Below, piece after piece: positions 2,351-24,378 of a stretch of DNA of 64,000 nucleotides. Source of the DNA: Maribacter polysiphoniae (GTDB lineage Bacteria > Bacteroidota > Bacteroidia > Flavobacteriales > Flavobacteriaceae). Below the pieces are notes generated by a model that worked only from the letters and a program-made list of their open reading frames with translations, ran no database searches and had not been told where the DNA came from. Every line of letters starts with the position of its first letter. The first letter of the stretch is position 1. The stretch lies in contig NZ_QGGQ01000003.1 of assembly GCF_003148665.1 (NCBI RefSeq), positions 372,001 to 436,000 on the forward strand, given 5' to 3'. A program made the position numbers and the translations under genes.

Positions 2351-4747
2351 CTACTTGATAAATTCCTTGATGGCCGCTTCCATGGAGCCCGTCTTTTTAT
2401 AAAGCGTCATTATGGCGTCGTTTTCTTTTCCGTCCGTCAGGTAGGCCGCATATACTTCGGGCGGTACCTCCAATCGAAAAATGTTACTTTCTTTACCTAT
2501 CTTAATGAACATTTCGGTGTATTTCCGTGTTCCGGTCAGATTGTTCTTAATGGATTTTAATTGATTCAGATCGTGGCTGGAAAGATTCAAGCGTTTCACG
2601 ATTTCGTCATATCCCTTTTCGTTGTTTAGGCTGTATATGACCTGTGTGTTTTCAAGAATGCTTGCCGAAGTCGAATTGTTTGGTAACTGATTGATGGATT
2701 GCAGAATGATGCCGATGGCACCGTTTTGTTTCCGGATGGCCTGATAATAAAATTCCACACTCTCCAGTACATTGTCGAACTTCAGTTGCTTGGCAAACTC
2801 GTCGAAGAGGATAATGCCCTTCTCGGCCCTATTCTTCCAAATAGTCCGTTGAATGGCCGTTTTTATAAGCTTCAACATCACGGAAAGGATTTCCTTGTTA
2901 TCCTTTACTTCATCGAGTTCAAAGATGATAAGTCGCTTGTCCTCGATTTTATAGGTCTGGTCTTCGCTAACGTCAAAAAGAAAGCTATATAGACCATCGC
3001 CAACATACTCGGACATGATGTGCAGGAAGTTGGTGATGTTGAAGTAATCGGGATGGATTTTAAGGGTTTTGAGAAGTGTTTCCTTATGTTCTTCTATGAA
3101 ATAGTAAAAGCTACTGAGCGAATGACCAATTGCGGATTGTTTGTAATAGTAGCGTAGGATTTTCTTGATGGAGACCGATTGTGCCTTGGTTACGTCCAGA
3201 TCCGAACCGAAGAGCTCTAAAAGGAAAACCGATAAGTCTTCGAACCGTTCTGGCGTTAGGTCATTTTTATCACTGATGAAGAACGGATTGATACCTAAAT
3301 TCTGGCCGCTTTCATATCGGAGTACGGTGTATTTTTCAGGATAAAGTTTGGCGAACTTGGTGTAGGACCCCCCAAGGTCGATAATGACCAGACGTACACC
3401 ACTCTCGAAATATTGACGTAGGACGTTGTTGGCCAAAAAGGACTTTCCTTCGCCCGTAGGTGCAAAAATAGCGAAGTTCCTAGCCTTGATACGTTTCTTT
3501 TGCTCATCCCAAACATCTTTTAAAACCGGTATATTGTATAGTCTATCATTGAAGATAATACCTGTTTCGTCTGATTTATAGTTGGTATTATTGATAAGCA
3601 GGCATAGGGCATGTTTCAAGTCTGTGACATATAAATCCTCGTTGGAAAAATGAGAGGAGAAGGCACAAAAGCTGTTTAAAAAATAATTTAACCGTTCTTG
3701 CCCCCTAGGGTAGTAAGGAATGATATCCAGATCTTTGAACTCCGCCTTGATTTGGGAAGTAATGCCCTCTAATTTTTTAGGTTCTTTATGCCAATAGATG
3801 ATATTGAGCTGACCGCGTATGACCCGCGAGTTATCATCAGCATTGATATTATCAAGAACGTGCTGGATTTTCCCTAGTATTACTTTGTTTTGGGAACCGA
3901 AGTTGGAGCTCTTTTTAAGTTCCTCAATTTTTTTGTCTAACAGTTTACGCCATTTCTGTTTGTCATCCAGATATAGAATTTGGTTGACGATATGGTTTTC
4001 GTTCAAGCTCAGACCGAGTCCGTCGATAAATCCCTGATGGAAAACAAAATCGTCGGAAGTAAAACTTTCATTCGTTTTACTGCTGAGTACATTTTTGCCA
4101 AAACATGATTCACTATTGACGGCCAGAACATCAAAATGGTTTTCACCAATATTGATTTGACCTTTATCTAGCAGAATGTCGGTATCAAAACCATCATTGA
4201 AACCATTGAAATATACATGCGTAAGCCTAAGTATTTCATTGGATAGGAGAGGGGTAAGTTGAATTTTTCGGCTATTGTTTATAAAAGAAACAGAATCGTT
4301 TATAGCACCAAGGAATCGGTTTAGGTTGTCATCCAGTCCCTTCGGAAAGGAATTAGGAACTTTCTTAAACGGATTGACATATTTAGGATTGTTTAGTGCT
4401 TTATTCTTGGTCAGGATAAAGAACAGGTGACATTGATGTTCGACATATGCCCTCCCTTTGAAATATTCGGAGGTTGCTTTTGCCAAGAAAGTACAGGAGG
4501 GAAGTTGTTTAGAGGTATATGATTTTTTTAGATAGATGTCCTGTTTGTGAACGACGGTACCGACAGGTAGTGATTTAATGGCCTGAAACCAGACACCATG
4601 AAGATCCTCAAAATCCTTTTCTGAAAGGGAATAGATTTCGGGCAAGTTCACTTTGTAGCAAAGCACCACATTGCCATTGTTGGCAAAGAATATGTTTTTT
4701 CGAATGTCTGCAATAGGATGGTTCGATGCCAGATTAATCTTTCTCAT
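2351..4747 (-). CDS. traG: Conjugation ATPase TraG (VirB4 family)
   Basis: A 798-residue cytoplasmic or membrane-associated ATPase that powers assembly of the type IV secretion channel. A Walker A motif APTGEGKS falls at about residue 430 and a Walker B with hydrophobic IILFDE at about 650; the N-terminal half is the VirB4/CagE-type region. The length is normal for TraG of CTnDOT-like elements. Its first codons overlap the end of traF by 14 bp, which indicates translational coupling. It is the best-conserved gene of the tra block and identifies the element as conjugative, not merely mobilizable. Confidence 0.97.
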   Translation of the reverse strand: MRKINLASNHPIADIRKNIFFANNGNVVLCYKVNLPEIYSLSEKDFEDLHGVWFQAIKSLPVGTVVHKQDIYLKKSYTSKQLPSCTFLAKATSEYFKGRAYVEHQCHLFFILTKNKALNNPKYVNPFKKVPNSFPKGLDDNLNRFLGAINDSVSFINNSRKIQLTPLLSNEILRLTHVYFNGFNDGFDTDILLDKGQINIGENHFDVLAVNSESCFGKNVLSSKTNESFTSDDFVFHQGFIDGLGLSLNENHIVNQILYLDDKQKWRKLLDKKIEELKKSSNFGSQNKVILGKIQHVLDNINADDNSRVIRGQLNIIYWHKEPKKLEGITSQIKAEFKDLDIIPYYPRGQERLNYFLNSFCAFSSHFSNEDLYVTDLKHALCLLINNTNYKSDETGIIFNDRLYNIPVLKDVWDEQKKRIKARNFAIFAPTGEGKSFLANNVLRQYFESGVRLVIIDLGGSYTKFAKLYPEKYTVLRYESGQNLGINPFFISDKNDLTPERFEDLSVFLLELFGSDLDVTKAQSVSIKKILRYYYKQSAIGHSLSSFYYFIEEHKETLLKTLKIHPDYFNITNFLHIMSEYVGDGLYSFLFDVSEDQTYKIEDKRLIIFELDEVKDNKEILSVMLKLIKTAIQRTIWKNRAEKGIILFDEFAKQLKFDNVLESVEFYYQAIRKQNGAIGIILQSINQLPNNSTSASILENTQVIYSLNNEKGYDEIVKRLNLSSHDLNQLKSIKNNLTGTRKYTEMFIKIGKESNIFRLEVPPEVYAAYLTDGKENDAIMTLYKKTGSMEAAIKEFIK

Positions 4748-7526: not shown

Positions 7527-7811
7527 TTAGGAATTTAAGCCATGGTGAACGTGGTTGGCATCCATCACTTTTTGGATTTCATCGGTATCGTAGTAGATGA
7601 TGCCGCCCACTTTAGTATAAGGTAGTGTTCCATTGATACGGAGGTTTTGAAGGGTGCCTGGGCTTACTTGTAGTAAATCCATGACCTCTGATGATTTCAT
7701 GTATTTTTTAATTCTTCCCGAAGCCTGTGTGGCAAGAAGGTTTTTAATGTCGTCGAGCAATTCCATTTTGAAATCGCGTAGATCGTCCGTAGTGATAATA
7801 TTTGTCGCCAT
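7527..7811 (-). CDS. Excisionase-like helix-turn-helix protein (HTH_17)
   Basis: About 94 residues. The ATG at 7811 is chosen because the protein from there looks complete (MATNIITTDD); the longer frame from 7871 runs through a perfect hairpin that belongs to the leader. The C-terminal half is a MerR-like/HTH_17 domain (YMKSSEVMDLLQVSPGTLQNLR, then a winged part with LPYTKVGG). Such proteins in Bacteroidetes elements act as recombination directionality factors or small regulators. It heads the unit with the initiator-like and ATPase genes, and upstream lie two inverted repeats and rteC. Regulation by RteC is an inference from CTnDOT. Confidence 0.8.
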   Translation of the reverse strand: MATNIITTDDLRDFKMELLDDIKNLLATQASGRIKKYMKSSEVMDLLQVSPGTLQNLRINGTLPYTKVGGIIYYDTDEIQKVMDANHVHHGLNS

Positions 7812-7830
7812 ATGAAATAAGTTTAAAAAC

Positions 7831-7867
7831 AAAGCCGTCAGGGTTATCGCTTTTTGATGACGGCTTT
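7831..7867 (-). promoter_or_regulatory. Leader hairpin before the HTH gene (attenuator or rteC terminator)
   Basis: Perfect 10-bp arms AAAGCCGTCA (7831-7840) and TGACGGCTTT (7858-7867) enclose a 17-nt loop. Read on the minus strand, the right arm is followed by GTTTTT, as in an intrinsic terminator, and the HTH ATG begins only 20 nt further on. It could end the rteC transcript or attenuate transcription into the HTH operon. A frame starting at 7871 translates through the hairpin in phase with the HTH gene, so ribosome-controlled attenuation is possible. Confidence 0.65.
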
Positions 7868-7988
7868 GCAATGATTTGACTTTCGTTCTACAAAACTGCT
7901 TCGGTTTTTAAGAACTTCTTCCATAGCTATGACAGAGGTGGGTAGTTTTTTTCGTCATTTAATTTAAGGATGTTTGCCCGTAATTCAT

Positions 7989-8082: not shown

Positions 8083-8922
8083 TTATTCATCCAAAGATTC
8101 CATGCGTTGGTTCAACATTTCAGTTAGTTTGTCCATGAACTTTGTCCTACTCATTTTTCTTGACCTTATTTCAATAAATGTGTGGTAATAATTTCCCAGG
8201 TCAACATTGTAAAAATGTTCGAAATGGGAGGCCAGTTCCTTGATGTCCGCAGTTCCGCTATTGATGGAATTACTGGCATGGAGCGCATAAAGCAATTCAA
8301 TTAAATCGGTCTTGCTTCCGGTCCAAAAAAGTTTTGAAGGTTTTTGCATCGGCGTATTTACAGGTATTTCAATGATTTTGTCCAAATGATCCACTTCCCG
8401 CTGTAGGTATACGATAAGCATATCGTAAGCCATAATGGTCGCGACCGTACCATCTTGACATGTTGAGAAATGGTCATCGATAAAAAAATGAAAGGAATCC
8501 GAAGGAAGTCTTAGGTCGCGGTTGCCTCGAACAAAATAATGCTCGTCCATTGACATGGCACCGCGTCTATAGTAATTATAGAATTCCAGGTTATCATTAA
8601 AAAATGTCTGTAGCTTATCTATTTGATACCTCAAATACTTGATTTGGGAGGTGTTATTGCCTCTTGGTCTTTTGCTTTCAATGGTAAAAAGCTTTCCGTA
8701 ATAAATAAGTTTGCTAAAAATTTGGGGCTTTACATGTTTGAAGAAATGGATCTCATCCCCTTGTGTGGTGAAGGATTTTTTCTCAACCTCAATATGTAGT
8801 TTCCTAATGTATTTTTCTACCAATACAATGCCTTTTTCAGCCTTAAATAGAATATCCCCTTGGCCATTTTCCAACTTATCCAGTTGGGCCTCGAATTCGG
8901 TTAGCAATTTTTGGTATTTCAT
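8083..8922 (-). CDS. rteC: RteC family regulator of ICE excision
   Basis: A 279-residue protein matching RteC along its length: an N-terminal alpha-helical region, the signature stretch FFIDDHFSTCQDGTVATIMAYD at about 145-167, and a C-terminal DNA-binding region (about 190-270) with WTGSKTDLIELLYAL. In CTnDOT, RteC activates the excision genes. The gene starts 15 bp downstream of the large fusion gene's stop, so it may be cotranscribed with it, an unusual link between cargo and excision control. No rteA or rteB is seen nearby. Confidence 0.9.
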   Translation of the reverse strand: MKYQKLLTEFEAQLDKLENGQGDILFKAEKGIVLVEKYIRKLHIEVEKKSFTTQGDEIHFFKHVKPQIFSKLIYYGKLFTIESKRPRGNNTSQIKYLRYQIDKLQTFFNDNLEFYNYYRRGAMSMDEHYFVRGNRDLRLPSDSFHFFIDDHFSTCQDGTVATIMAYDMLIVYLQREVDHLDKIIEIPVNTPMQKPSKLFWTGSKTDLIELLYALHASNSINSGTADIKELASHFEHFYNVDLGNYYHTFIEIRSRKMSRTKFMDKLTEMLNQRMESLDE

Positions 8923-8937
8923 GTGATGTTGGATTTC

Positions 8938-11340
8938 TCACTGACCTTCCATTATTCCAAGTAGTTCCAGGGTATAATTGTCAGCGGTCTGCAGGTAAGC
9001 ATATTTTTTGATCACCTGGGCCCCCAATTTCTTTTTCTCGAAAGAAGCGGTCATCCCCATGTCTATTTTCGAGAACCCTAACGCAATGGCCCGTTCAATG
9101 GTCATTAATAACAATAGTCTGTAGGTACTGAAATCATTTCGATAGGCGTAGTCCATTCCAATAAATGCAGGGACGTAGACCTGTCCTGAATTCTTATAAC
9201 AAAGCATTACTCCAATTAAGGTTTCAAGTTGATCAGAAGGACGTACCATAATGAACTCCCAAAGAGGATGTTCGTTCATATGATCAAAGAGTTTTTCAGG
9301 AAAAGAAAATGTATTGAGTCCTTGGTTATTATCGTGTACGTTGCCGTATAATTTTTTGATTTGTACTATTTCTGAGGATGTAGCCTTCTTTACTAACTTT
9401 ATATTAACCTTTTCCAGAAAGGGTCTAATGTCCTTGCGATAATGCTTTCGGTTTCGACTGGATAATTTGGAAAGGAAGTCTTGGAGATCTACGACACCCT
9501 TCAAGTCCACCATACAGGTATCGGGCATTTGAACCCGTATGAAACCATTCCCCTGAAGATTTCGATGCCAAGGAGTTTCCCTTTCAAAATCACGGAGCAC
9601 TATCATCTTTGCGTCAAGATCGAACTGTAGGTCTTCCAGTAGGCGGATCAATGTATTCATAGCGTCTTTGGCCTTGGGATGTTTCCCATCCCAATACAGG
9701 TGGTCTCCTTCTGTAAATAAGGAACCCATCGAGACTACCATGGAAGTCAAATGATACGGGTCTTCATTCCGTTCCACTTCTATCGCCTGTGAAACCTTTT
9801 CTTTGGCCAACATATCATCTTTCCACAGGGCATGGGTCAAGAAGGTTGCCAAGATGATTTTTTCATTTTCATCTTTGATGAACACATAGCGAAAGGCCCA
9901 ATTGTATTCCTTTCTATTATTATCTTGGAATACATTTTCAAGAAAATTTAATCCATCCCAGTCGTAGACCCCTTGACCTTTCATTAGGTTATTCCATAGC
10001 TTTTTATCGACTGCCCCAATAGTTTCCTTTATTTCAATTTGAAGGTCAACGTTCAAAACCTTTTCACTTAGGACTTTTGGTTGAAGATTAAAAGCGTGGA
10101 AAACACGTTCCGGAGTCGTTCTGGTTTCAGCTAGTGCTTTAGGATAATGATACTCCATTGCAGCTACCAATGCTTTGATTTCTTCCTTTTGATTATGTCT
10201 GGATATGGTTATTCGGACACCCGTATTCTTTACAGGCACAGCTGGGAAAATCCCTAGGTTCACATAGAATCCTTCCTTCATCAAACGGTTGACAAAATTG
10301 TATCCCGTTTTTGGCATTCCTGTTCCAATGTAGAATACAGGGGATTCATTATGGTCTATCAGTGGTAGATCGGTCTTTGCCAGAAATTCGTTGAAACAAT
10401 CGATTCGCTCTTTCAGCTCATCTTGCAGGCCGTATATATCCTTGGACAAATGGATTTTGGCCGATGCGATTGCAGCAGCCACAGATGCCGGTTCCAATTG
10501 GGCCGAAAACGTCAAGGGCCCACCAAAGGTCTTGATCTTTTTGTATAGTTCTATATCGGAACATGCCAATAGGGCACCGCTAGCCCCAAACGTTTTGCTC
10601 AAGGTTCCAAAAAGAAGTACATTGGACGGCAACGCGCCTAGTTGGCTCAACACATAGCCCGTTCCATTTTTTCCGACCCAACTCATGCCATGGACATCAT
10701 CGAAGTAGAATCGTAATTGTGGATATTGTTTGCCCAGTTCCATTAAATCGTTTACCGGGGCGAAGTCCCCGTACATGGAATAAATCCCATCGGCCATGTA
10801 CCATATGTGCTTTTTGGAGTGGGTGTATTTTTTCAGTTTATCCTCAAGCATTTCCAGGTTGTTATGCCGAATCATTTCGATAGGAACACTACGTGTCTTT
10901 AACATCTTGGCAGCATTCTGTACGCTCCAATGTACTTGATGGTCCAAAATGATGACATCATCATCATCGACGGCACTTGGTATTACCCCGATGTGACCAA
11001 GGGTGCTGTTTTTGGTGATGATGATCGGTGCTTGATACATTTGCGTTATAAGCTCTTCAAGTTCTTTATATAAGGGATTTGAGATGTAGGATTTTGATAA
11101 TGGAAACTGTGTGCCATAATTTTCGATGGCCCGAATAGCGGCTTTTTTGAGCCGTTGATCCTGTTCAAGACCTAGATATCCCGTAGTCCCAAAATGGAAA
11201 AGATTTCGATTCTTGACCTTTATCTTCCTTCCAGAAAAGGAATTGCCTTCCGCATACAAATGCAGGACGCCTTCTTGTTTGGCATCCGTAAATACCTCGT
11301 GAACCGTATTCAAGAAATTATGATGTTTGATCTTTGCCAT
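8938..11340 (-). CDS. Alpha-oxoamine synthase-like PLP enzyme fused to a GNAT-fold acyltransferase
   Basis: An 800-residue fusion. Residues about 1-410 are a fold-type I PLP enzyme of the alpha-oxoamine synthase group (BioF, KBL and serine palmitoyltransferase relatives): DDVH at 214-217 stands for the usual DEAH, and the Schiff-base lysine is K249 in TLSKTFG. Residues about 450-800 form a GNAT/FemAB-like acyltransferase (Acetyltransf_6 type), with NRKHYRKDIRP near 630 and SKIDMGMT near 760. The first half should condense an acyl-CoA with an amino acid, and the second could acylate the resulting amine. A bifunctional aminotransferase/GNAT protein is known from flavobacterial genomes, but I know of no defined product. 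Product and substrate are therefore inference. Confidence 0.85.
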   Translation of the reverse strand: MAKIKHHNFLNTVHEVFTDAKQEGVLHLYAEGNSFSGRKIKVKNRNLFHFGTTGYLGLEQDQRLKKAAIRAIENYGTQFPLSKSYISNPLYKELEELITQMYQAPIIITKNSTLGHIGVIPSAVDDDDVIILDHQVHWSVQNAAKMLKTRSVPIEMIRHNNLEMLEDKLKKYTHSKKHIWYMADGIYSMYGDFAPVNDLMELGKQYPQLRFYFDDVHGMSWVGKNGTGYVLSQLGALPSNVLLFGTLSKTFGASGALLACSDIELYKKIKTFGGPLTFSAQLEPASVAAAIASAKIHLSKDIYGLQDELKERIDCFNEFLAKTDLPLIDHNESPVFYIGTGMPKTGYNFVNRLMKEGFYVNLGIFPAVPVKNTGVRITISRHNQKEEIKALVAAMEYHYPKALAETRTTPERVFHAFNLQPKVLSEKVLNVDLQIEIKETIGAVDKKLWNNLMKGQGVYDWDGLNFLENVFQDNNRKEYNWAFRYVFIKDENEKIILATFLTHALWKDDMLAKEKVSQAIEVERNEDPYHLTSMVVSMGSLFTEGDHLYWDGKHPKAKDAMNTLIRLLEDLQFDLDAKMIVLRDFERETPWHRNLQGNGFIRVQMPDTCMVDLKGVVDLQDFLSKLSSRNRKHYRKDIRPFLEKVNIKLVKKATSSEIVQIKKLYGNVHDNNQGLNTFSFPEKLFDHMNEHPLWEFIMVRPSDQLETLIGVMLCYKNSGQVYVPAFIGMDYAYRNDFSTYRLLLLMTIERAIALGFSKIDMGMTASFEKKKLGAQVIKKYAYLQTADNYTLELLGIMEGQ

Positions 11341-11544
11341 ACTGTTGCGTTTTAAAGTGGAGTAAAATGTAATAGTATTTGTAGGAAAATATCCTTTTTT
11401 GATATTTTAAAATCCTTTATGGATAAGTGTTTATCCTTGACAAATAAGATTTCTTTCTTTATTAGTCAACGAATATTAAAACTATGGTCAATTTAAGAGT
11501 TGTCGATTTACTAACTTTATGGTATTAACCAGTTTTCTATTACA
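11341..11544. promoter_or_regulatory. Divergent promoter region of the ICE cargo
   Basis: A 204-bp AT-rich gap between the minus-strand oxoamine-synthase fusion and the plus-strand STAS-like gene. It must contain divergent promoters. TAACTTTA at 11512-11519 resembles the Bacteroidetes -7 box TAnnTTTG at 7 of 8 positions, but no well-spaced TTG box is evident. Confidence 0.35.
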
Positions 11545-11916
11545 ATGTCTTTTTTTAAAGAAAATGAATATGCAACATACCATATTCAAGATAGTATCTT
11601 GTATATCGTATATAAGTCGGAGGTTTCTATCGATTTACAAGCCGCAATTCGTATTGTTGAAGATCGCCTTAGGTTACAGGAAGGCTTGGCCTATAAAGTC
11701 CTATGTGATGTAAGGGGTATCTATGAAATGGATAAACCAGCTAGGGATTATTTGGCCATTGAAGGGTCTATCCTGGTAACCGTTGTAGCGTATGTTATTG
11801 AACCTACGATTTCAAAAGCGCTATCAGCGTTTTATTTACGAATCAGTAGTCCACCCATACCTTCAAGGGTCTTTTCTGATATTGAAGCTGCCAAGCTATT
11901 TCTTCTTACAAAATGA
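11545..11916 (+). CDS. STAS/SpoIIAA-like small protein
   Basis: A 123-residue soluble protein with no signal or membrane segment. An alternation of strands and helices (strand ILYIVYK, then helix, strand YKVLCDVRGI, then helix AVAYVIE-like) resembles the SpoIIAA/STAS-like fold of small anti-sigma antagonists or lipid-binding modules. The C-terminal PPIPSRVFSDIEAAKLFL is typical of a bacteroidetal family that often precedes a PAS-AraC regulator, as here (58 bp). It may modulate the regulator. The family assignment is by eye, so the role is tentative. Confidence 0.65.
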   Translation: MSFFKENEYATYHIQDSILYIVYKSEVSIDLQAAIRIVEDRLRLQEGLAYKVLCDVRGIYEMDKPARDYLAIEGSILVTVVAYVIEPTISKALSAFYLRISSPPIPSRVFSDIEAAKLFLLTK

Positions 11917-11974: not shown

Positions 11975-12952
11975 ATGGATAAATTGCGAAAAATGGACCT
12001 GAACAAGATCAACAAGATGTTGATGGAAATGGCCAGCGGCAATTTTTTCTATAGATTGGAGCGTACTGGCAACCATGACAACTTGGAGTCCATTATCCTT
12101 GTTTTGAATATGTTGGCCGAAGAAATCCAAGAAATCCTGATACACCAAGGATATGCAAATTTGAATGGTATCGTTAAGCATTTGATTCAATTGAATTTTC
12201 TGTTGGATATGCAAGGCGTCATTAAAGGGGTGAATAAAAGCACGTGTTTGACCTTGTCCTACCTGCATGAAGATTTGCTCAAGAAACGTTTTGATGCATT
12301 GCTCAATACAAAGTCCAAAAAAAGATGGACCAAATATCTCAAAAAAATAGGTAAGAAAGGTTTTTATGAAACTTCAATGGAACTTACGTTTGTTTCGAAG
12401 GAAGGCCTATTGCTGCCGCATACCTGTCACATTGGTTCCTGTGAAGGCCAACACACCCAGGACAATGGGATTTGGGTCACTGTTATACTTTTTTCCAAGG
12501 ACCGGAAAGAAAGGGACGAGCTTCAAAGGCAAGATATCATATCCTACAAAGAGAAGAAGACCACAGGTTCAGGCAATGAACTGAAGACCACAAAGAACCG
12601 TCCCAAATTGAGTTTTGAGGATATTCGAAAAATCAGGGAGGGAAGAAATCTTATCCTCAACAATCTAGAGAAAGATTTGCCCTCGCTACGCGATTTTGCA
12701 CTTCAATTAGGGACCAATGAATTCAAGCTCAAGTATGGTTTTAAGGAGCTTTTTGGAACCAGTGTCTATCGGTTTTTGTTACAGGAGCGACTGCGAAAAG
12801 CCAAAATGTTGATTCAGTATACTGACTTCACCATAAAGACGATTGCCTATAAAACCGGGTTCAAGAGCATTCCCCATTTTTCAAGGGTCTACAAGAAAAC
12901 GTATGGTTATGCCCCAAGTGAATTGCGGAAAATATCTAGAAAAGACCCTTGA
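11975..12952 (+). CDS. PAS domain AraC-family transcriptional regulator
   Basis: A 325-residue cytoplasmic regulator. Residues about 8-52 look HAMP-like (a MASGNFFYRLERTG turn followed by an amphipathic helix). Residues about 62-180 form a PAS fold (HLIQLNFLLDMQGVI, then TSMELTFVSKEG). Residues about 215-320 are a two-HTH AraC domain with LRDFALQLGTNEFKLKYGFKELF and the signature TIAYKTGFKSIPHFSRVYKKTYG. It has no membrane anchor, so it senses an internal ligand or a partner such as the STAS-like protein. It probably controls the MauE/DUF6520 genes downstream and perhaps the metalloprotease/SusCD operon. Confidence 0.88.
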   Translation: MDKLRKMDLNKINKMLMEMASGNFFYRLERTGNHDNLESIILVLNMLAEEIQEILIHQGYANLNGIVKHLIQLNFLLDMQGVIKGVNKSTCLTLSYLHEDLLKKRFDALLNTKSKKRWTKYLKKIGKKGFYETSMELTFVSKEGLLLPHTCHIGSCEGQHTQDNGIWVTVILFSKDRKERDELQRQDIISYKEKKTTGSGNELKTTKNRPKLSFEDIRKIREGRNLILNNLEKDLPSLRDFALQLGTNEFKLKYGFKELFGTSVYRFLLQERLRKAKMLIQYTDFTIKTIAYKTGFKSIPHFSRVYKKTYGYAPSELRKISRKDP

Positions 12953-13046: not shown

Positions 13047-13478
13047 ATGATTCACATAGAGAAGATCAAGCAAACCATTGCATGTAGTATCAGCATGGTA
13101 TTGGCTACCCTGTTTTTATTTGCAGCCACGACCAAGCTTTTGAATTATCGGGAATTCAGTTTACAATTGGCCCAACCTTCTATATTAAGAGGTTACACGG
13201 ATATCGTGGCTTGGATGGTACCGGTAGCCGAACTTGTGGTCTCGGTCTTACTTTTTTTTAAAACATTCAGGCTTCAGGCCCTTTTTGCCAGTTTCGGTTT
13301 GATAGTCCTCTTTACCACCTATATCCTATTGATCTTGAATTTTAGCGATGTTGTACCCTGTTCCTGTGTCGGAGTCATTCCCGCTTTGGGATGGACGGAT
13401 CACATCCTATTCAATATTGCCTTACTGGCACTTGCAGCACTTGGAATCTTTTATTCCAAAAACATGGCATCAGAATAA
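13047..13478 (+). CDS. MauE/DoxX-like redox-associated membrane protein
   Basis: A 143-residue integral membrane protein with four hydrophobic segments (about 13-32, 50-70, 78-99 and 119-137). A CSC pair (C105, C107) lies at the periplasmic end of the third segment (VVPCSCVGV). MauE/DoxX-like proteins pass reducing or oxidizing equivalents to exported cysteine proteins. The next gene encodes an exported protein with exactly two cysteines, which supports that role. An AT-rich promoter region of 94 bp separates it from the AraC gene. Confidence 0.82.
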   Translation: MIHIEKIKQTIACSISMVLATLFLFAATTKLLNYREFSLQLAQPSILRGYTDIVAWMVPVAELVVSVLLFFKTFRLQALFASFGLIVLFTTYILLILNFSDVVPCSCVGVIPALGWTDHILFNIALLALAALGIFYSKNMASE

Positions 13479-13554
13479 AAAAAATACTACGTAGGGACAG
13501 GATAAGCCGAAAACCTGTAAAAAAGAGTAGGCATTAATTTTTAAATATAATCGT

Positions 13555-13797
13555 ATGAAAACTAAATTTTTTAAGTTCGTATTACCTGCATTGGCCATCG
13601 TTATGGCCCTTGGCCTTGCCTTTGCATCGGAAGCCGAAACAGAAAGTCGAATTGCCTATTACGACCATCCCATCCTTGGGGTGCAGTCCACTATGGTTGA
13701 GAATGAATGTGGAACAGGTAATGCAATTGCCTGTAAGTTCAACGGTCATCAATTGTATGCGGAACCCGCGTTGACCAATGAATTACGTAAAGACTGA
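13555..13797 (+). CDS. DUF6520 small secreted protein
   Basis: An 80-residue precursor. The signal peptide (about 1-25, cleavage near AFAS before EAE) leaves a mature chain of about 55 residues with two cysteines, C52 and C60, spaced as a C-x7-C loop (ECGTGNAIAC). This fits the DUF6520 family of small flavobacterial exported proteins, which have no known function. It follows the MauE-like gene by 76 bp and is closed by a strong terminator. A disulfide formed through the MauE-like protein is a reasonable inference. It could be a signal or metal-binding peptide, but nothing in the sequence proves this. Confidence 0.8.
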   Translation: MKTKFFKFVLPALAIVMALGLAFASEAETESRIAYYDHPILGVQSTMVENECGTGNAIACKFNGHQLYAEPALTNELRKD

Positions 13798-13826
13798 GCC
13801 TTGGTTTGACACAGATGTCAAAAGAA

Positions 13827-13854
13827 AAGGTGCCTTGTATAAGGCACCTTTTTT
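13827..13854. terminator. Bidirectional intrinsic terminator
   Basis: Perfect 10-bp arms AAGGTGCCTT and AAGGCACCTT with a GTAT loop (13827-13850) run into a T-tract on the plus strand. An A-rich stretch on the left supplies a T-rich run on the minus strand. It ends both the DUF6520 transcript and the convergent metalloprotease transcript. Confidence 0.88.
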
Positions 13855-13949
13855 AACTAATTCAAAATAACAAACTACCATGTCAGAAAATATTTTGTTT
13901 CTGAATCCATGGATACTTTTCATAGTCAGGGGAAGGCCTGGCATTTTAG

Positions 13950-16265
13950 TTACAACATGTCCTTTATTTTTTTCAAGCTTAATTTCCAATGACCGGAGGA
14001 AAGGGCATTATCACTTTTTTTTATGTGATTTTCGATATCCTTCCTTAAGGAAACCAATTGTTGTAGCAGTAGTCCCTTGGAATAATCGGTATAGTCCATG
14101 GCTTTCCTGTCAGGATCAACGTTTATTCGTTCTTGTTCCAGTATAGCCTTCATCTTATCCAAATAGGTCATTTGAATTTCCTGCTTTCTACGTCCAATAG
14201 GCACCAGATCTTTCTGTATTTCAATAAATATCCCTGATTGCAATGCTGTCAGATAGTTGCTCAGGGTTTTCTGATAACCAGCTACGGTTTCTAAATATTC
14301 GAAACGCTTCAGCCTTTGGGGCCTTAAGAGTTCGTACAGTAATTTTTGCTGGTACGATACTATATAATCTGGATGGCTACTATAGTTGATTCTGGTGCTG
14401 AAAGCGGGATTCGTTAACCATTCTGGAGGGTCGAAAGCATTGGTCAGGATATAGGCAAGGGCCTCTTCCTGAGATTTTAGAGCCAATGGGGTGTATATTT
14501 TACCAGGTTGATCCAAGGATTTGTACTGGATGTCATAACCACCAATCAAGGAAACTACTTGGCGCATTTGTAAATACCATAATTCCATACATTTTTTGTA
14601 GAGGACTTCCAGTCTCACATTGTCCTTTGTGTTGGAGCATGCTTGGGGTAATAGTGCAATGGTCCTTTTTAAATTTTTCATTGCCAATTGGGTACTTCTA
14701 ACCGGGTCATTGGTTTCCACAACTTCATTGGTGTTAGCAGGACCGACCACTTCGAGAGGACTGGTATTGTAGCGATACCATGGAATGGAATCCTGAAGTC
14801 TGACGATGCGCTCCAAAGCGGCTTTCTCGTCCATTCCTTCGGCAAATTCCGAGTAGCCCCATTGAATCGTGTAAACATCCGTTGGTCCCACTTTTGATAT
14901 TAGGAAGTCAGGAGGTATACTATCCTCGGGTTGGGGAATGTTGTTGGCTCTGGTAGAGTTCATGACACTTGGGGTAAATCCCATAGTTTTCAGCCAGTCG
15001 ATATCGTTCATCTTCTTTACGGGATACTGGGCCTCCCCATAGTTATTGTCCATTATCCCTAGGGCATGTCCCGTTTCGTGTGCGGTCAGTTGTTGGAACA
15101 GCTCTCCTAATAGGCTGTCGGGAAACGGCAGTTTTTGTGCTCTTTTATCCAATGGTGCGGCTCTGGTAAAGTAGAAGTTCTCGAAGGTATGACGGGCGGC
15201 ACCTAAGACAATATCGCTCCTCAGGATTTCCCCGGTTCTGTAATCCTTGATAAAGGAAGCCTTACCTGCATCATCCTCTTTTTCGTTACCCCTAAAATAT
15301 TTTTTGGGTGACCAGTATACAATGTTGTTATGGATGTTATGCCTGTCCCATTCACTTAAACGATCGGTTTCCTTGACCACAATGGCATCTTTAAATCCTG
15401 CGGCCTCGAAAGCCGGGAGCCACTCCCTGATTCCAGCTATGACATAAGCTCTCCATACTTTTGGAATTTCGGGAGCTAACAAAAAAGTGATGGGTTTGAC
15501 CGGGACACTTATTTTTTGGTTCTTATATTTCTTTTCAAGGCGCCATCGACTAATATTGGCAATATCGTTTTGGGTACCTTCGGTGTCGATTCCGTAACCA
15601 ATACCGAAAACTTCCTCGTTATAATACCCCATTCGGTAATCATGGCGTCTGGCTTTCATCGGTTCCCCCAATGCGCAGAAACTTAAGAAAATAGGGAAGG
15701 AGACCTTTGATCCATCTTTTAGGATACCATGACTGGTTTTGATCAATACCTGATCGTCAAGATCCTTGGCTCCAAGTAGCATGGAAATCTGGGGAATGGT
15801 ATTTCCAGAAAATCCTCCAGGGAATTGAGGCCATTCTATATCAAGATGCAATACAAGATCAGTGATGTTGATACAATAGCTATCCGGGTCACCTTTTTTG
15901 TTTACTACTGGGAATATGGCGAGGATATTTTCCATTAGAGGAACTTTTCGTTTAAAGGGAATGATGATTCCTGCCGTGGATTTTATGCTTTGGGGCTTGA
16001 GTACTATTTTATCCTGATGTCTTGACCAGACCACCTGCATGTATTTGCGTCTGTAATTTCCTTCGTATCGAACGAACAGCATTGGCTTGTCCAATATAGG
16101 TTCAGGAATATTCAAATAGAGTTGGTCTCCCTCTATAAAAGAGCTTAAAAAAAGGCTTTTAATGGGCTTTGCATCGGCTAAGTTGTCTATAGTCCTTGTT
16201 CTGGAATGGGATGGATACCAAAAGATCAATAGGAACAAAAATTGAATGATTATATTTTTTTTCAT
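13950..16265 (-). CDS. Secreted zinc-dependent metalloprotease (DUF5117/DUF4953)
   Basis: A 771-residue exported protease. A signal peptide (about 1-21) is followed by a DUF5117-like beta-rich domain (about 40-250) and a metallopeptidase domain with HETGH at 396-400 continuing as ALGIMDN, where D406 is in the place of the third zinc ligand. A DUF4953-type C-terminal region follows. The length is near the family norm of 750-850. It is the last gene of the SusC-SusD-protease unit, 76 bp after susD. It probably acts in the periplasm on peptides brought in by the SusC/SusD pair, or on the DUF6520 peptide; both roles are inferred. Confidence 0.9.
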   Translation of the reverse strand: MKKNIIIQFLFLLIFWYPSHSRTRTIDNLADAKPIKSLFLSSFIEGDQLYLNIPEPILDKPMLFVRYEGNYRRKYMQVVWSRHQDKIVLKPQSIKSTAGIIIPFKRKVPLMENILAIFPVVNKKGDPDSYCINITDLVLHLDIEWPQFPGGFSGNTIPQISMLLGAKDLDDQVLIKTSHGILKDGSKVSFPIFLSFCALGEPMKARRHDYRMGYYNEEVFGIGYGIDTEGTQNDIANISRWRLEKKYKNQKISVPVKPITFLLAPEIPKVWRAYVIAGIREWLPAFEAAGFKDAIVVKETDRLSEWDRHNIHNNIVYWSPKKYFRGNEKEDDAGKASFIKDYRTGEILRSDIVLGAARHTFENFYFTRAAPLDKRAQKLPFPDSLLGELFQQLTAHETGHALGIMDNNYGEAQYPVKKMNDIDWLKTMGFTPSVMNSTRANNIPQPEDSIPPDFLISKVGPTDVYTIQWGYSEFAEGMDEKAALERIVRLQDSIPWYRYNTSPLEVVGPANTNEVVETNDPVRSTQLAMKNLKRTIALLPQACSNTKDNVRLEVLYKKCMELWYLQMRQVVSLIGGYDIQYKSLDQPGKIYTPLALKSQEEALAYILTNAFDPPEWLTNPAFSTRINYSSHPDYIVSYQQKLLYELLRPQRLKRFEYLETVAGYQKTLSNYLTALQSGIFIEIQKDLVPIGRRKQEIQMTYLDKMKAILEQERINVDPDRKAMDYTDYSKGLLLQQLVSLRKDIENHIKKSDNALSSGHWKLSLKKIKDML

Positions 16266-16332
16266 GGTGTTGCATATTTAAAGGGTGTTGACCTTTTTTA
16301 GGCCATAGCGTATAGTATATGATGCATGATAT

Positions 16333-16351
16333 CGGGTATTTTTAATACCCG
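16333..16351. promoter_or_regulatory. Hairpin overlapping the susD stop
   Basis: CGGGTATT and AATACCCG (8-bp arms, 3-nt loop) overlap the last codons and stop of the SusD gene. No T-tract follows on the minus strand, so it is more likely an RNA stability or processing element that separates susCD expression from the protease gene than a full terminator. Confidence 0.5.
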
Positions 16352-17775
16352 GGGTTTTGCGGTAAAAGATTCGGATTGATTTCCAGTTCCGTTTCAGGAA
16401 TGGGAAGCAGTACATCCGTTGGTTTCCAGTTCGTCTTCAAGTCCCCTAGGGCTTCTTCAGCTGTCCCCGTCCTTTTAAGGTCGAACCAACGTAATCCTTG
16501 CTCGGTAAAAAGTTCGACACGCCGTTCTTGTAAAATGGCGTCCAACAGGTCACCTGTCGTACCTACAATGGTATCGGGTAACCCCGCCCTATTTCTGATG
16601 GAATTGAGGTCCTCTAGTGCTCCCGGATTATCCCCCGATCGTGCCCTTGCTTCCGCGCGGATCAGGTATTGTTCCGCCAATCGGAACACAATGGAATATT
16701 CCAAGGATTCCGTTTCGATCAAGGTGGCCTTGTATTTATGGGCAAACCGTAGGGTAATGGTGTTGTCTGTATCGGATAGGCTATCGGTCCAATGCGTCTT
16801 TCGCAGATCACCGGTTTCAAAGGCCGAAAATAAGTCATCGGTCAAACTGTAGGTCTGACCGGGAATGAATCGGATGACGAGTTGGTTGGCCACTTGCGTA
16901 TTCTTTGGGTTCTCGCCGTCTTTGAGCTGCCATATCGTTTCGGGGGATTCCTTTAGGAAAACGTTCTCCAGGTCCGTTTCCAACATAAAATTGTCGATGA
17001 GTTCCGTTGCGATCGATGCTGCCCGTTCCCAGTTTTCTGCATATAGGTTCATCCGCGCCAACAAGGCCTTGGCGGCCCATTGATCCGGTAGCACCCGTTC
17101 ATTCGAAGAAACATCGACACCCTCCAAGAGGTCCACGGCCAAAGTGAGGTCGGATAGGATGTTATCCATTACCGTTGTCTCGGTGTTGCGGACCACAATG
17201 TTGTTGTCCAAATAGTCCGTAGTGGTGATGTAAGGGATATCGCCGTATAGGGCCACCAGGAGGCTGTGCATATAGCATCTAACAAATAACGCCTGTCCCT
17301 TGTATTGATCTTGTTCCATTGCGGTCAGCTTATTTGAATTCTCGACACCCTTGATTACATCATTGGCGCTGTATATGAGGTAATAGCCTTGGCTCCACCA
17401 ACCCGTGATAACGTCATTGCCAGGCAAAACGTTATGAAGGTTCAATTGTGAATATCCGGTATCGAACCCATAATAATCCAATTCGTCGCTGTAGATGCCC
17501 AACCCCGTGGTCAGACCGAAATTACCGGAAACCATGCCCTGTTCCCGCATCTTATAATAGATATTAGCCAAGGCGGACTCCACTGTCGCCGCATCATTGA
17601 AGACCGTTTCGGAAACCAAAATATTTTCTGGGGGTCCCACTTCAACAAAGTCCGAGCAACTGAAAAGTCCCAGTGCTAGCAGGAGCAGGGTAATTCGAGG
17701 CATCCTAACTGTCTGCTTGAATAAGTGTTTCGTATCGAGGTTTCTACTGATTGTTATTTTTTTTCTGTATTGCAT
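16342..17775 (-). CDS. RagB/SusD family outer-membrane lipoprotein
   Basis: A 477-residue surface lipoprotein with lipobox LFSC (Cys about residue 40) and an N-terminal SusD-like TPR region; the C-terminus carries the family's typical RRVELFTEQGLRWFDLKRTG and NPNLLPQNPGY ends. The start at 17775 lies 16 bp after the susC stop. An internal ATG at 17703 would give a cleaner short signal peptide and is an equally good start. With the adjacent SusC it forms a lidded importer. The presence of a metalloprotease and the absence of any glycosidase nearby argue for a peptide or small-metabolite substrate. Confidence 0.93.
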   Translation of the reverse strand: MQYRKKITISRNLDTKHLFKQTVRMPRITLLLLALGLFSCSDFVEVGPPENILVSETVFNDAATVESALANIYYKMREQGMVSGNFGLTTGLGIYSDELDYYGFDTGYSQLNLHNVLPGNDVITGWWSQGYYLIYSANDVIKGVENSNKLTAMEQDQYKGQALFVRCYMHSLLVALYGDIPYITTTDYLDNNIVVRNTETTVMDNILSDLTLAVDLLEGVDVSSNERVLPDQWAAKALLARMNLYAENWERAASIATELIDNFMLETDLENVFLKESPETIWQLKDGENPKNTQVANQLVIRFIPGQTYSLTDDLFSAFETGDLRKTHWTDSLSDTDNTITLRFAHKYKATLIETESLEYSIVFRLAEQYLIRAEARARSGDNPGALEDLNSIRNRAGLPDTIVGTTGDLLDAILQERRVELFTEQGLRWFDLKRTGTAEEALGDLKTNWKPTDVLLPIPETELEINPNLLPQNPGY

Positions 17776-17791
17776 AGTATCATGATTATGG

Positions 17792-20700
17792 TTAAAAGCC
17801 TAATTGAAGTCCGAGGGTAATCTGTCTCAACTGTGGTAATCGGGTATTGGAAGGTTGTTCGGGATCTGGCCCCTTGTAGTTGGTTAGGGTCAAGAGGTTT
17901 TGCCCTTGCACGTATACGTTCAGGTCCAGCCCATTCCCTAAATCGGGTACTTTATAATTGATCGAAATATTCCGCAATCGAATAAAGGAGGCATCGGAGA
18001 CGGCCGCATTGCTGCTTTTCTGAAGGGCACCGGTATCCTCTCCGAATGCCAGACCACCGGAAGCCCTTTGGATGGGATTCATGTTCCCGGGCTGTTGCCA
18101 TCTATCCAATAGGGCCGTGCTTGAATTACCCCTATATCCCGGGGTGGCTCCAAAAGCAATTTCATTGAATGCCTTTTGATTTTTAAACTGAAGGAAAAAG
18201 TCTAAGGTCACATGGTTAAAGGTGATGGTATTACCCAGACCCCCATAAAACTTGGGTCCGAAGTCTTCCACCCATTGCTTGTCCTCCAAACTGCCGATAG
18301 TCCCATCCCCGTTATAATCCTCGAATTGATAGCTACCTGTTTCCGGATCCACGCCCAAGGCATTGTACAATTTTACGATGGTCAAGGGTTCCCCTATGAT
18401 CAGGTGGTTGGCGAACGTGGACGTTTCCAAGCCTTCAAAGGCCACCAGTTTATTTTTGGGTATCGTCAAATTGAATGTGGTCGACCAAGTAAAATTCTTT
18501 TTTTTAAAATTTACAGTTCGGATATCCACCTCGAATCCTGAGTTTTCCACGGTGGCATCAAAATTTCCGGTCAGTTCGGAAAAGCCGGTCGTTGCGGCCA
18601 ATGGAATTCCGATAAGTTGGTTCGATGAACGGTTTCGGTACCAGGAGCTGTTGATCAAGATCCGGTCTTTAAAAAAACCGAGTTCCAGGGCCGCCTCCAG
18701 TTTTTTGTTCGCCTCCCAGCCAAATAGGGGATTGAATATGCCCGTTGGCTCCAAAAGGACGATCCCATTATAGTTGAATCCACTGACGTTATAGGTGTCC
18801 AGAAACTTATAGTCCCCAATGTTATCACTACCGGTGGTACCAAAACTACCCCGTAGCTTTCCATAGCTTAATAGGGGGTTTCCTTGAAGGCTATTTTCTT
18901 CCGAAAACAGCCATGCCATGCCTACCGCACCAAAATTCCCGAACTGTTTTCCGGGTCCGAATCGGGAGGACCCGTCCCTGCGGCCTGTGAAATTCACGAT
19001 ATATCTATCCCGAAATTTCAGGTTCAGGCGACCGAATAGGGCATTGTACTTGTATTCGCTATCAGCATCCTGAAGCACTTCCAAGGTGTTGGCGGCCGTC
19101 AGGTTCCGCAGGAGTTCGTCATTGGGAAAACCTGTTCCCTTTTGAATGAATTGTTCGGTGTTTTCCTCTTGGAATGTCGTTCCGACCAGGAAATCCAACT
19201 TGAGCTCTTGCCATTGTTTCCTCCAATGCAACTGTGGTTCTACGATCCATGAGTTCCTTTTGGATCCATTGGTGGTCAACGAGGCATAATTTTGGGATGT
19301 TAAACCCAGATTGGGATTTCTTGCCGAACTTGGCAAGGTCCTATAGGAATCCAGTCGATAGCTGTTAAAACCCAGACTGGATTTGAACTCCAAGTTGGGT
19401 ATGATTTCATAAGACACCAATGCATTGGCGATGAGGGTATTTGTGGTCACCTCGAATGTTTCTTCTAAGGAGGCCAAAGGATTGTCCCAGGTATTGTTTT
19501 CCCAATTGATATTACCTTCAGCATCATAAAGTTCCGGGGCATTGGGCTCCAATGTGTAGGCCTTACTGGTAAAGTCGGTCCTAGGCATCCTATTTTTCCC
19601 ATTGGTGTAGCTGGTAGAAAGATTGAACTTGAACCGATGATTACTGGATTTGTGGTTCAGGTTGCTGTGAAGGGTCGCTTTTTTATAATTGGCATCCCCA
19701 AGGAATACGGTGGTCTCCTTGTTGTAGGCCCCACTGACCAGAAACTGCGTATCCGATGATCCTCCGGAGACGGAGAGTTGGGCACTGTTTCTATAGGCGG
19801 TGCCTCCGATAAGCTTTTTTTGCCAATCCGTATAACGGTCGTTGTCCCAAGATTTAATATCCGGCCAAATAAAATCGAATGCTGGATCTTCCAAAAACGG
19901 ACCAAAACCATCGTTCGTGATTCCTTCCCTTCGTACTTCCAGATACTGTTCCGTGTTCATAAGCTCCAAGAAATTGGATACCCTCCCCAGGGAAGTACTT
20001 AAATGGGCATTGAACCGTGTTTTTCCCGTTTTTCCCTTTTTAGTGGTAATGAGCACCACACCATTGGCCGCCCTGGAACCGTAAATTGCGGTGGCATCGG
20101 CATCCTTTAATACCTCGATGCTTTCAATATCATTTAGGTTGAGGGCATTTAAGGGACTGATGTTTCCCCCAAGGATTTGACCGGAAACATTCGATGAACC
20201 GAGGGACTGGGCGTTGTACGGTACACCATCAACAAGGTAAAAGGGGTCGGAAGCTCCATCGATAAAATTCCGACCGCGTATTTCTACATTAAAACCACCC
20301 CCTGGTACCCCTGACGATTGGATGATGTTCACACCCGACAAATGCCCTTGCATGGCGGCCAGAGGATTGCCCACTGGCTGTTGTTCCATGGTTATCGCCT
20401 TGATCGTAGAGATACTACCAGTGCGTTCTTTCTCTGTGACGGTGTAATACCCCGCATTAAGGACAACCTCGTCCAACTGGGTGATGTCCTCCTGAAGGGT
20501 TACGTCGATTTTTTTTCTACCATTGATTGGAATCGTTAGGGTCTTAAAACCTATTGCGGAAAAGATAAGTTGGCCATTGCCTGCTGCACGAATGTTGTAT
20601 GTACCGTCCATTTTTGATATGGTCCCTTTGTCCGATTGTTCCACGAGTATGGTCACCCCCCCGATGGGTTGTCCATGGGTATCGGTAATTAATCCCGTAA

Positions 20701-20851
20701 TAGTGGTCTGTAGGTGGTTTTGATTCGTAATACTTTTTATGGAGGTGGTATACTTGGCCTCGAGTTTAAGGCTAAATAGGGGGGAGAGCAAAGCATACAC
20801 GGTAAGAAGTAAACTCAGGCCGTTCGTTAATCGTTGTTTTTTATTCATCAT
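17792..20851 (-). CDS. SusC/RagA family TonB-linked outer-membrane transporter
   Basis: A 1019-residue TonB-dependent transporter. It has a signal peptide, a carboxypeptidase-regulatory-like domain (about 50-130, with GLITDTHGQPIGGVTI) and a plug (about 140-260, with the SusC signature IESIEVLKDADATAIYGSRAANGV). A 22-strand barrel ends in the aromatic LGLQLGF. It lacks the extra STN domain, so it does not signal to a FecR/ECF pair, consistent with AraC control of the cargo. The substrate is unknown. It is the only SusC on the ICE portion of the window. Confidence 0.95.
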   Translation of the reverse strand: MMNKKQRLTNGLSLLLTVYALLSPLFSLKLEAKYTTSIKSITNQNHLQTTITGLITDTHGQPIGGVTILVEQSDKGTISKMDGTYNIRAAGNGQLIFSAIGFKTLTIPINGRKKIDVTLQEDITQLDEVVLNAGYYTVTEKERTGSISTIKAITMEQQPVGNPLAAMQGHLSGVNIIQSSGVPGGGFNVEIRGRNFIDGASDPFYLVDGVPYNAQSLGSSNVSGQILGGNISPLNALNLNDIESIEVLKDADATAIYGSRAANGVVLITTKKGKTGKTRFNAHLSTSLGRVSNFLELMNTEQYLEVRREGITNDGFGPFLEDPAFDFIWPDIKSWDNDRYTDWQKKLIGGTAYRNSAQLSVSGGSSDTQFLVSGAYNKETTVFLGDANYKKATLHSNLNHKSSNHRFKFNLSTSYTNGKNRMPRTDFTSKAYTLEPNAPELYDAEGNINWENNTWDNPLASLEETFEVTTNTLIANALVSYEIIPNLEFKSSLGFNSYRLDSYRTLPSSARNPNLGLTSQNYASLTTNGSKRNSWIVEPQLHWRKQWQELKLDFLVGTTFQEENTEQFIQKGTGFPNDELLRNLTAANTLEVLQDADSEYKYNALFGRLNLKFRDRYIVNFTGRRDGSSRFGPGKQFGNFGAVGMAWLFSEENSLQGNPLLSYGKLRGSFGTTGSDNIGDYKFLDTYNVSGFNYNGIVLLEPTGIFNPLFGWEANKKLEAALELGFFKDRILINSSWYRNRSSNQLIGIPLAATTGFSELTGNFDATVENSGFEVDIRTVNFKKKNFTWSTTFNLTIPKNKLVAFEGLETSTFANHLIIGEPLTIVKLYNALGVDPETGSYQFEDYNGDGTIGSLEDKQWVEDFGPKFYGGLGNTITFNHVTLDFFLQFKNQKAFNEIAFGATPGYRGNSSTALLDRWQQPGNMNPIQRASGGLAFGEDTGALQKSSNAAVSDASFIRLRNISINYKVPDLGNGLDLNVYVQGQNLLTLTNYKGPDPEQPSNTRLPQLRQITLGLQLGF

Positions 20852-23347: not shown

Positions 23348-24378
23348 ATACCAATGGAGCCTGATTCGATGGCCTTGCCAATCCCTTTTTTCAATAGATT
23401 GATCGCTTTGAGGGTCAACTGGAGTTTACTGGTCGGAATGTGCAACAAGGCGGTACTGACCCCAGCTTTTTCCAGGAGTTTAAACGCCAAGGCCTTTTCA
23501 TTGGTCGGCAGTTTCGTGATTATGGAAAAATAAAGCTTCGGATTCTTTAGAAAGGTCTTCCTTGCCGTATAGGTCTCTACGTAGTTTCGGTTATAACCGA
23601 ATAGCCCATCAAAGGTCTTCTCCGCATTTTTATAAAAGGTGTCCCTGTCAAAGCCCCGTTTCACGGTCTTACCGTTCATCTCAACATCGGAGGCCTTGTA
23701 CTTGCTTCCGGGAGAGAGGCTGTACCGGTTAGAGACATCCTTGCGGCTGACAATGATATGGATATGGCTCTGTGGACCCGGCTTGGGCATTCCCCTGACG
23801 ATGCGCTTGCCGTTCAGTTGGTGGGGGGCTTCCCTTTCCAGGCGCACCATATCCCTTTGCAGTTTTTTGATATTCCCTATAAGTTCCCCATTTTCGATAC
23901 GACGGATTTCTTGTTTCAGGATTAGGATTTTTGTGGCATAGGGTTGGTTTTCGATAATCTGTGCATCGCTTCCTTTATAGGTGCGTTGGTGTTCCACTTT
24001 GGCATAGTATTGAATATCGTCTACGGTCACGGGTCTACCATTGATTTCCCTGTTAAATGCCTTCGCATACGCTTTCATTACTTCGCGGGTATAGCATTTA
24101 AGGGTTTTAGGGGAATTCCCTATGGCCTGAAGTTCGCGCCTACTTGGGTTCAGGGTGATGGAATAGAACTTGGGCTCCACCTTTTTGAGTTTGGCCGTGT
24201 TCCCATCTATTTTATTGATGACCTCCATCGCTGATATTTCTTCCCTGTCTTGGTCAAAGAAATGCTCCAGTTCGTTTATGGGTTTCCCCTCGTTTTCCTT
24301 TTCGAGATAGTCCACAAAGGCACTGGCGCTTTGGGCATAATTACCTTTGACCTTTTGTGCGGTAATGGTGATGTACAT
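23344..24378 (-). CDS. mobB: MobB family relaxase
   Basis: A 344-residue relaxase of the MOB type found in CTnDOT-like and Bacteroides mobilizable elements (DUF5712). The metal-binding histidine motif SHIHIIVSRKD lies at about residue 203. The N-terminal strand MYITITAQKVKGNYA and a candidate catalytic Tyr (YYAKVEHQR near 126) fit a nicking enzyme. It is followed by mobC (4-bp overlap) and preceded by the BfmA-like gene (1-bp gap). Its target, oriT, should lie upstream of the operon at about 25.0-25.1 kb. Confidence 0.9.
   Translation of the reverse strand: MYITITAQKVKGNYAQSASAFVDYLEKENEGKPINELEHFFDQDREEISAMEVINKIDGNTAKLKKVEPKFYSITLNPSRRELQAIGNSPKTLKCYTREVMKAYAKAFNREINGRPVTVDDIQYYAKVEHQRTYKGSDAQIIENQPYATKILILKQEIRRIENGELIGNIKKLQRDMVRLEREAPHQLNGKRIVRGMPKPGPQSHIHIIVSRKDVSNRYSLSPGSKYKASDVEMNGKTVKRGFDRDTFYKNAEKTFDGLFGYNRNYVETYTARKTFLKNPKLYFSIITKLPTNEKALAFKLLEKAGVSTALLHIPTSKLQLTLKAINLLKKGIGKAIESGSIGI

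Follow-up and report, generated by a model that had tools for sequence, protein, structure and literature searches.

What does an enzyme of the oxoamine-synthase type, joined to an acyltransferase-like second half, do in a conjugative element of Maribacter polysiphoniae, and which neighbouring genes does it work with? The locus lies in a 64,000-nucleotide stretch of contig NZ_QGGQ01000003.1, here called the window. An initial annotation had proposed that the fusion makes an N-acyl amino-ketone serving as a mobile lipid, a signal or an antimicrobial, and that the adjacent rteC ties it to excision of the integrative and conjugative element (ICE). Among these products, a signal is the one that we retain as the best reading: the fusion is a candidate signal synthase with a dedicated sensor, from a branch spread through Bacteroidia and captured by ICEs, and we put the probability of this reading at roughly 0.6.

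Related loci were collected in a scan of one genome per species, which yielded 78 loci (the near loci), nearly all in Flavobacteriaceae, with two or three copies in several genomes. The features of the window that the argument needs are the following.

2351–4747, minus strand: TraG conjugation ATPase of the ICE (TIGR03783, over cut-off)
7527–7871, minus strand: HTH_17 protein downstream of rteC (domain match)
8083–8922, minus strand: rteC, presumed second gene of the operon, 15 bp downstream of the fusion (PF09357, E 3.8e-83)
8938–11340, minus strand: fusion enzyme, with a synthase half (residues ~1–400) and a FemX-type tandem GNAT half (~410–800)
11391–11469, minus strand: candidate AraC-type operator, tandem half-sites at a 21-bp period, between the fusion and the DUF7793 gene
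11545–11916, plus strand: DUF7793 protein, divergent from the fusion (PF25056, E 1.4e-38), with a STAS/SpoIIAA fold by structure model and fold search
11975–12952, plus strand: soluble PAS-AraC regulator, presumed receptor/activator (HTH_18, E 4.2e-20; PAS_9, E 0.0015, below cut-off)
13047–13478, plus strand: MauE-type membrane protein (PF07291, E 4.7e-28; homologue in 72 of 78 near loci)
13555–13797, plus strand: DUF6520 small protein (PF20130, E 2e-14)
13950–16265, minus strand: Met-zincin (DUF4953/DUF5117; homologue in 36 of 78 near loci)
16342–17775, minus strand: SusD/RagB-like protein (homologue in 70 of 78 near loci)
17792–20851, minus strand: SusC-like TonB-dependent receptor (homologue in 68 of 78 near loci)
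23344–24378, minus strand: MobB relaxase of the ICE (NF041495, 402 bits, over cut-off)

The fusion gene and its synthase half

The fusion gene is a single uninterrupted frame of 800 residues starting with ATG. Pfam models match both halves, Aminotran_1_2 at residues 49–392 (E 2.8e-23) and Acetyltransf_6 at residues 630–767 (E 3.4e-07), with FemAB_like spanning residues 442–762 below its cut-off; these matches and the intact frame bear out the annotated fusion of an oxoamine synthase with a GNAT/FemAB-like enzyme. Residues K249, D214/D215, H217, H137 and R376, which we take to be the catalytic Lys, Asp and His residues and the carboxylate-binding Arg, are invariant in 41 of 41 aligned homologues (chosen at <82% mutual identity from 83 rows, with two rows left out). 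K249 and the Asp and His residues of the DDVH motif, named at the outset, are thus among the invariant positions, and the fusion carries the conserved catalytic residues and Arg of an alpha-oxoamine synthase of PLP fold-type I.

The joining of the two halves does not look like chance, because residues 1 to at least 790 are covered in 75 of the 78 near loci and dN/dS against the 90% identical fusion of locus L021 is 0.097 (0.046 for the N half and 0.143 for the C half; dS is saturated in the comparisons with the more distant L022 and L095). The Maribacter luteus fusion is 99% identical to that of the window, and the full fusion was found in 8 of 60 searched genomes of relatives, the host genome included. 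One ICE copy (L097:10001-11134) holds only the first part of the fusion and keeps rteC, and in one genome the fusion is broken by stops (L106/L121), so that the fusion enzyme is not strictly needed.

The top score for the N half came from PRK07505, an unnamed model (262 bits, cut-off 342). The two models for serine palmitoyltransferase (SPT) gave 156.1 bits against a cut-off of 500 and 146.7 against 640, the bioF equivalog model 164.5 against 426.45 (155–174 against 426 in five family members), and PRK07179, the CqsA/LqsA model, 77.6 against 428 (54–88 in five members, same cut-off). These model scores rule out a plain SPT, BioF, Kbl or CqsA identity. The closest solved structures are 8xha and its relatives, followed by SPT; an excerpt of PMC11906848 gives 8xha as the Alb29 oxoamine synthase.

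A presumed sensor pair beside the synthase

The initial account left out the two genes that diverge from the fusion. Among the 73 near loci with enough flank, the DUF7793 gene and the PAS regulator gene are present upstream and divergent in all 73 (a count that takes in L085, whose regulator is a kinase by Pfam), and rteC adjoins the fusion in 65. Profile models run across all 78 near loci similarly found DUF7793 in 77, an AraC domain in 74 and RteC in 66. DUF7793 with the PAS sensor is therefore a steadier partner of the fusion than rteC.

The window's PAS-AraC protein has a HAMP-like start, judged by eye, and no 19-residue stretch above 1.27 mean hydropathy, that is, no transmembrane segment. 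The DUF7793 structure model (pLDDT 90.2) matched the SpoIIAA-like structure 2q3l (E 1.4e-4, TMq 0.65) and then STAS domains, which gives this protein a STAS/SpoIIAA fold by fold search; a SpoIIAA-like Pfam family also matches three DUF7793 members, one of them above cut-off, and a sequence search of solved structures returned weak matches only. STAS proteins are commonly regulatory adaptors, and the predicted fold would suit such a function next to a kinase or AraC sensor. Distant DUF7793 genes elsewhere show no tie to a synthase, and some of them adjoin kinases. At L156:3961-7144 and L158:3516-6838, for example, they lie directly upstream of hybrid histidine kinases with no synthase, a wider STAS-kinase pairing.

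The sensor itself varies between lineages. L124 has a PAS histidine kinase (HisKA_3) with a LuxR-type response regulator in this place, and L085 a HisKA kinase with PAS and a weak HAMP match, along with two DUF7793 genes. In L163, which is filed as viral and is the single relative that two scans of viral contigs found, 3 bp separate an unfused synthase from the 7TM histidine kinase gene behind it, and a response regulator is encoded ~3.1 kb away on the opposite strand; the unfused synthase of L175 has a membrane kinase next after it. The nearest sensor gene in five test lineages lies 3–909 bp from the synthase. A phage-type integrase and an HU-like gene lie near the synthase-kinase-regulator set of L163 (L163:7566-12917, IMGVR_UViG_3300024336_000001).

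Beyond the near loci, the N-half family at E 1e-65 or better occurs in 67 of the 395 genomes drawn at class level and in 9 of the 395 drawn at phylum level, the two draws differing in make-up. Our class-level set comprises 60 of the 77 places in the draw, 32 fused to the GNAT half and 28 unfused; since contig ends cut 24 of the 60 stretches to less than 15 kb, some neighbour genes may be missed in it. A histidine kinase, response regulator or AraC gene lies within 1.5 kb of the synthase at 48 of the 60 loci (27/32 fused, 21/28 unfused) and at that distance is lacking at 12 (5/32 and 7/28). The presence of DUF7793 goes with the fusion: it lies within 1.5 kb in 30 of 32 fused loci (absent from L263 and L293) and in none of the 28 unfused ones. 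By a simple hydropathy scan, the kinase adjoining a fused synthase is soluble in 24 of 25 cases (all but L297), and the one adjoining an unfused synthase has at least two hydrophobic segments in 16 of 17 (all but L253).

For comparison we used 40 control synthases, hand-picked from the non-fusion synthases in relatives' genomes, which are also the sole gauge of the genome-wide background of kinase genes. With the same models, no histidine kinase, response regulator or AraC gene turned up within 600 bp of any of the 40, and widening the range to 4 kb added just two cases, at 2,389 and 3,173 bp; DUF7793 and the C-half GNAT are likewise absent around all 40. The controls fall into about five clades and so amount to fewer independent cases than 40.

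In a tree of the synthases, the N halves of the fusions group with L163 and L175 in one clade (100/99), which has PRK07505 as its sister and includes none of the 40 controls; the tree has long branches, for which the program issued a warning, and its deep order, like that of the quick tree described next, is unsure. A quick tree of 76 rows needs three changes of the fused/unfused label, so that few events stand behind the agreement of GNAT fusion with DUF7793 and a soluble sensor. In this quick tree the branch of Flavobacteriaceae to which the ICE copies belong has a nested position, with the non-ICE L085 as its sister, and for this reason the ICE form looks derived.

The predicted acyltransferase half and its product

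The structure model of the C half (pLDDT 88.7, pTM 0.87) has two GNAT-like domains with a FemX fold, as in FemABX or tandem GNAT enzymes. By E-value, its top fold in the PDB is FemX (1ne9, E 4.2e-13, TMq 0.51), and its FemX matches reach TM-scores of 0.50–0.55. Below them come tandem GNATs, with E-values from 1.9e-9, and N-myristoyl transferases, from 2.3e-7, both with TM-scores mostly about 0.4–0.57, near those of FemX; MprF/A-PGS stand further down the list. A sequence search found no solved structure for this half. A role as acyl or amino-acyl transferase is well supported by the model, and since the C half folds like FemX, N-acylation is likely. The N-acylation proposed in the initial annotation is thus the probable activity, but the fold also allows amino-acyl transfer.

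An unfused GNAT relative of the C half is found at L111:499-2586, where it adjoins a DAGK-type lipid kinase, an APP1-like gene (match just below cut-off) and DUF1761; neighbours that look similar by eye occur in several of L113-L119 and L122.

The main rival to a signalling role is the synthesis of a structural lipid. SPT-like and bacterial-ceramide-synthase-like halves would then make an oxidised-ceramide-type lipid, and the sensor would switch the enzyme on under envelope stress. The C half does match FemAB_like in 8 of 26 members at E 0.01, and the same family matches in Caulobacter vibrioides, presumably in its bacterial ceramide synthase (bCerS). The window's own C half, at 23.4 bits against a gathering threshold of 27, falls short of this family (PF04339-like). 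The lipid-kinase-like and APP1-like genes beside the unfused GNAT of L111 also point towards lipids. According to an excerpt of PMC11087976, Spt and then bCerS act in the cytoplasm before reduction, an order that suits a fused pair. Against this stand the N half, far below both SPT cut-offs, the host's separate synthase genes in control clades (L196 and L204), and the 40 control synthases without an adjoining sensor gene, and we judge a structural lipid enzyme unlikely.

The C half may instead resemble FemX or MprF in function, using an aminoacyl-tRNA donor to decorate the aminoketone or another lipid. The rank of FemX as top fold and the listing of MprF/A-PGS favour such an amino-acyl transferase, but GNATs and N-myristoyl transferases mostly come close to FemX in TM-score, a level of likeness at which the fold does not discriminate, and we consider this alternative very improbable.

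The gene set at 13047–20851 adjoins the module, and homologues of its MauE, SusD and SusC genes occur jointly in 67 of the 78 near loci. If the cargo of the ICE were an accessory natural product or an antimicrobial, with SusCD/MauE for uptake or immunity, this would account for the joint occurrence and for the related PRK07505 gene that sits among biosynthetic-type genes in L161, but such a role is highly unlikely given that tblastn finds no such neighbours in L085 and L124, which keep the fusion, DUF7793 and the sensor.

A candidate operator, rteC and comparison with known systems

TraG, the MobB relaxase and BfmA-type genes score over their cut-offs in the ICE of the window, and a tyrosine recombinase, TraN, TraM, TraK and MobC match below theirs. 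Together with RteC, these genes make up the integrase, Bac_Flav tra genes and relaxase of a CTnDOT-like ICE, with the integrase and several tra models below cut-off, and judged by this gene content the fusion is carried in a conjugative element. A weak HipA-type (YjjJ) match, below cut-off, lies just inside the integrase end of the ICE (L303:16731-17987). Plasmids give little sign of carriage: among 72,556 plasmid records, 174 have a match at E 1e-20, and in none does it extend over 80% of the query.

Around the 60 class-level loci, the search for mobile elements used the RteC, TraG and MobB models; RteC was absent within up to ~7 kb of the synthase at all 60, and TraG and MobB gave no match, although these two are poor markers at this range, being found in 37 and 0 of the 78 near loci, respectively. 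Because no RteC or TraG match lies nearby, the wider family is probably chromosomal. The proposed tie to rteC therefore stands as a close linkage in the near loci, 15 bp behind the fusion, and is secondary in the family at large; as a constant partner, rteC is ruled out by its absence from 8 of 73 near loci and from all 60 wider ones. The initial annotation had also named, as one outcome that would speak against it, homologues mainly outside mobile elements with a biotin-type role. The first part does apply, in that the wider family is probably chromosomal, but the second does not, the five members scored lying far below the BioF cut-off.

The gap between the fusion and DUF7793 is ~200 bp in most loci. 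A 14-bp direct repeat (at least 12 identical) occurs at a spacing of 20–22 bp in 43 of 76 gaps, with 1.5 expected in resampled sequences; when spacings are taken in steps of three, the 21–23 bp range holds 40 gaps and every other range 0–5. Direct repeats with this 21-bp period are a typical feature of AraC operators. Scanned with a position weight matrix trained on the same set of loci, the array in the window scores 29.7, 28.3 and 18.4 and is the sole strong site in 64 kb, the next best reaching 14.8 at position 52524 and the shuffled maximum (Markov resamplings) 14.4. Additionally, 4 of 6 scanned loci (L024, L028, L031 and L044) have a second site ~1.5 kb off, near the MauE start by coordinates, which was not found in L021, L022 or the window. 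In the simplest model suggested by this arrangement, the PAS-AraC protein controls the fusion-rteC operon.

Read as a signal synthase, the locus might work as follows. The N half, like others of its family, would form an alpha-aminoketone by condensation of an amino acid and a fatty acyl thioester, and the amine of this product would be N-acylated by the FemX-type C half. The divergent STAS-fold DUF7793 protein and the PAS protein would read the product inside the cell, as their steady pairing with the fusion suggests. In the ICE, the PAS-AraC protein would bind the 21-bp direct-repeat candidate operator and drive a co-transcribed fusion-rteC operon, through which synthase output would feed back on RteC and hence, as in CTnDOT, on excision.

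Because the AraC-type sensor lacks a transmembrane stretch, the signal may act within the producing cell. True quorum sensing, in which a neighbour's signal is read, would need a product that permeates the membrane or is brought back in; a metabolic loop that regulates itself is a possible alternative. A bolder proposal, which we hold tentatively and as rather doubtful, is a second oxoamine-synthase quorum-sensing family in Bacteroidia. Its unfused members would signal to membrane kinases, and the N-acyltransferase fusion would make a lipid-like signal with a STAS and PAS intracellular receptor; the ICEs of Flavobacteriaceae would have captured the fused type, gating RteC, excision and transfer.

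Signalling small molecules are, to our knowledge, poorly known in Bacteroidota, and a Bacteroidia synthase family with its own sensor, at the class-level frequency given above, would offer a handle on them. If the reading is true, conjugative transfer would, in the ICE branch, be tied to a chemical signal via a defined promoter; confirmed, it would be a new kind of bacterial chemical signalling, perhaps one that times a mobile element's own movement. The best-matching open papers in PubMed Central did not describe signalling by oxoamine synthases in Bacteroidota or control of RteC by a synthase, and in the literature on RteC, ICEs and aminotransferases the only match concerned ICEs of Riemerella.

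Among known systems, the PRK07505 family and Alb29-type synthases supply the top model and the top solved structure for the N half. PRK07505 is the sister of the fusion branch in the tree, but the branch does not fall inside it, and for the PRK07505 members L161 and L162 the (incomplete) annotation shows neither a kinase nor a response regulator or AraC gene next door. FemX and MprF share the fold of the C half, but at 7–15% identity in the FemX/MprF rows. Spt and bCerS likewise combine an oxoamine synthase with subsequent N-acylation in the cytoplasm, the latter predicted here, whereas our enzyme is a single polypeptide, far below the SPT model cut-offs and linked to a sensor. RteC of CTnDOT-type ICEs, which in CTnDOT acts on excision, is similarly a PF09357 protein in an ICE with Bac_Flav-type tra genes; here, rteC is co-directional with the synthase and directly behind it, with an AraC-type candidate operator upstream.

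The closest parallel in layout is with CqsA/CqsS, LqsA/LqsS/LqsR and JqsA/JqsS/JqsR, in which a PLP enzyme of the oxoamine-synthase type stands beside a histidine kinase, with or without a response regulator. An excerpt of the review PMC3376566 describes CqsA/CqsS and LqsA/LqsS as cognate pairs of synthase and six-TM kinase, and an excerpt of PMC3566124 places JqsA next to JqsS and JqsR. The same arrangement of synthase beside sensor holds for the four-fifths of class-level loci counted above, with no control having a sensor so near, and a multi-TM kinase likewise stands beside most unfused members. The fused members differ from these systems in belonging to a separate synthase branch, set apart by its PRK07179 score, in the added GNAT half, and in pairing a soluble PAS sensor with a predicted STAS-fold partner, with an AraC-type output in the ICE.
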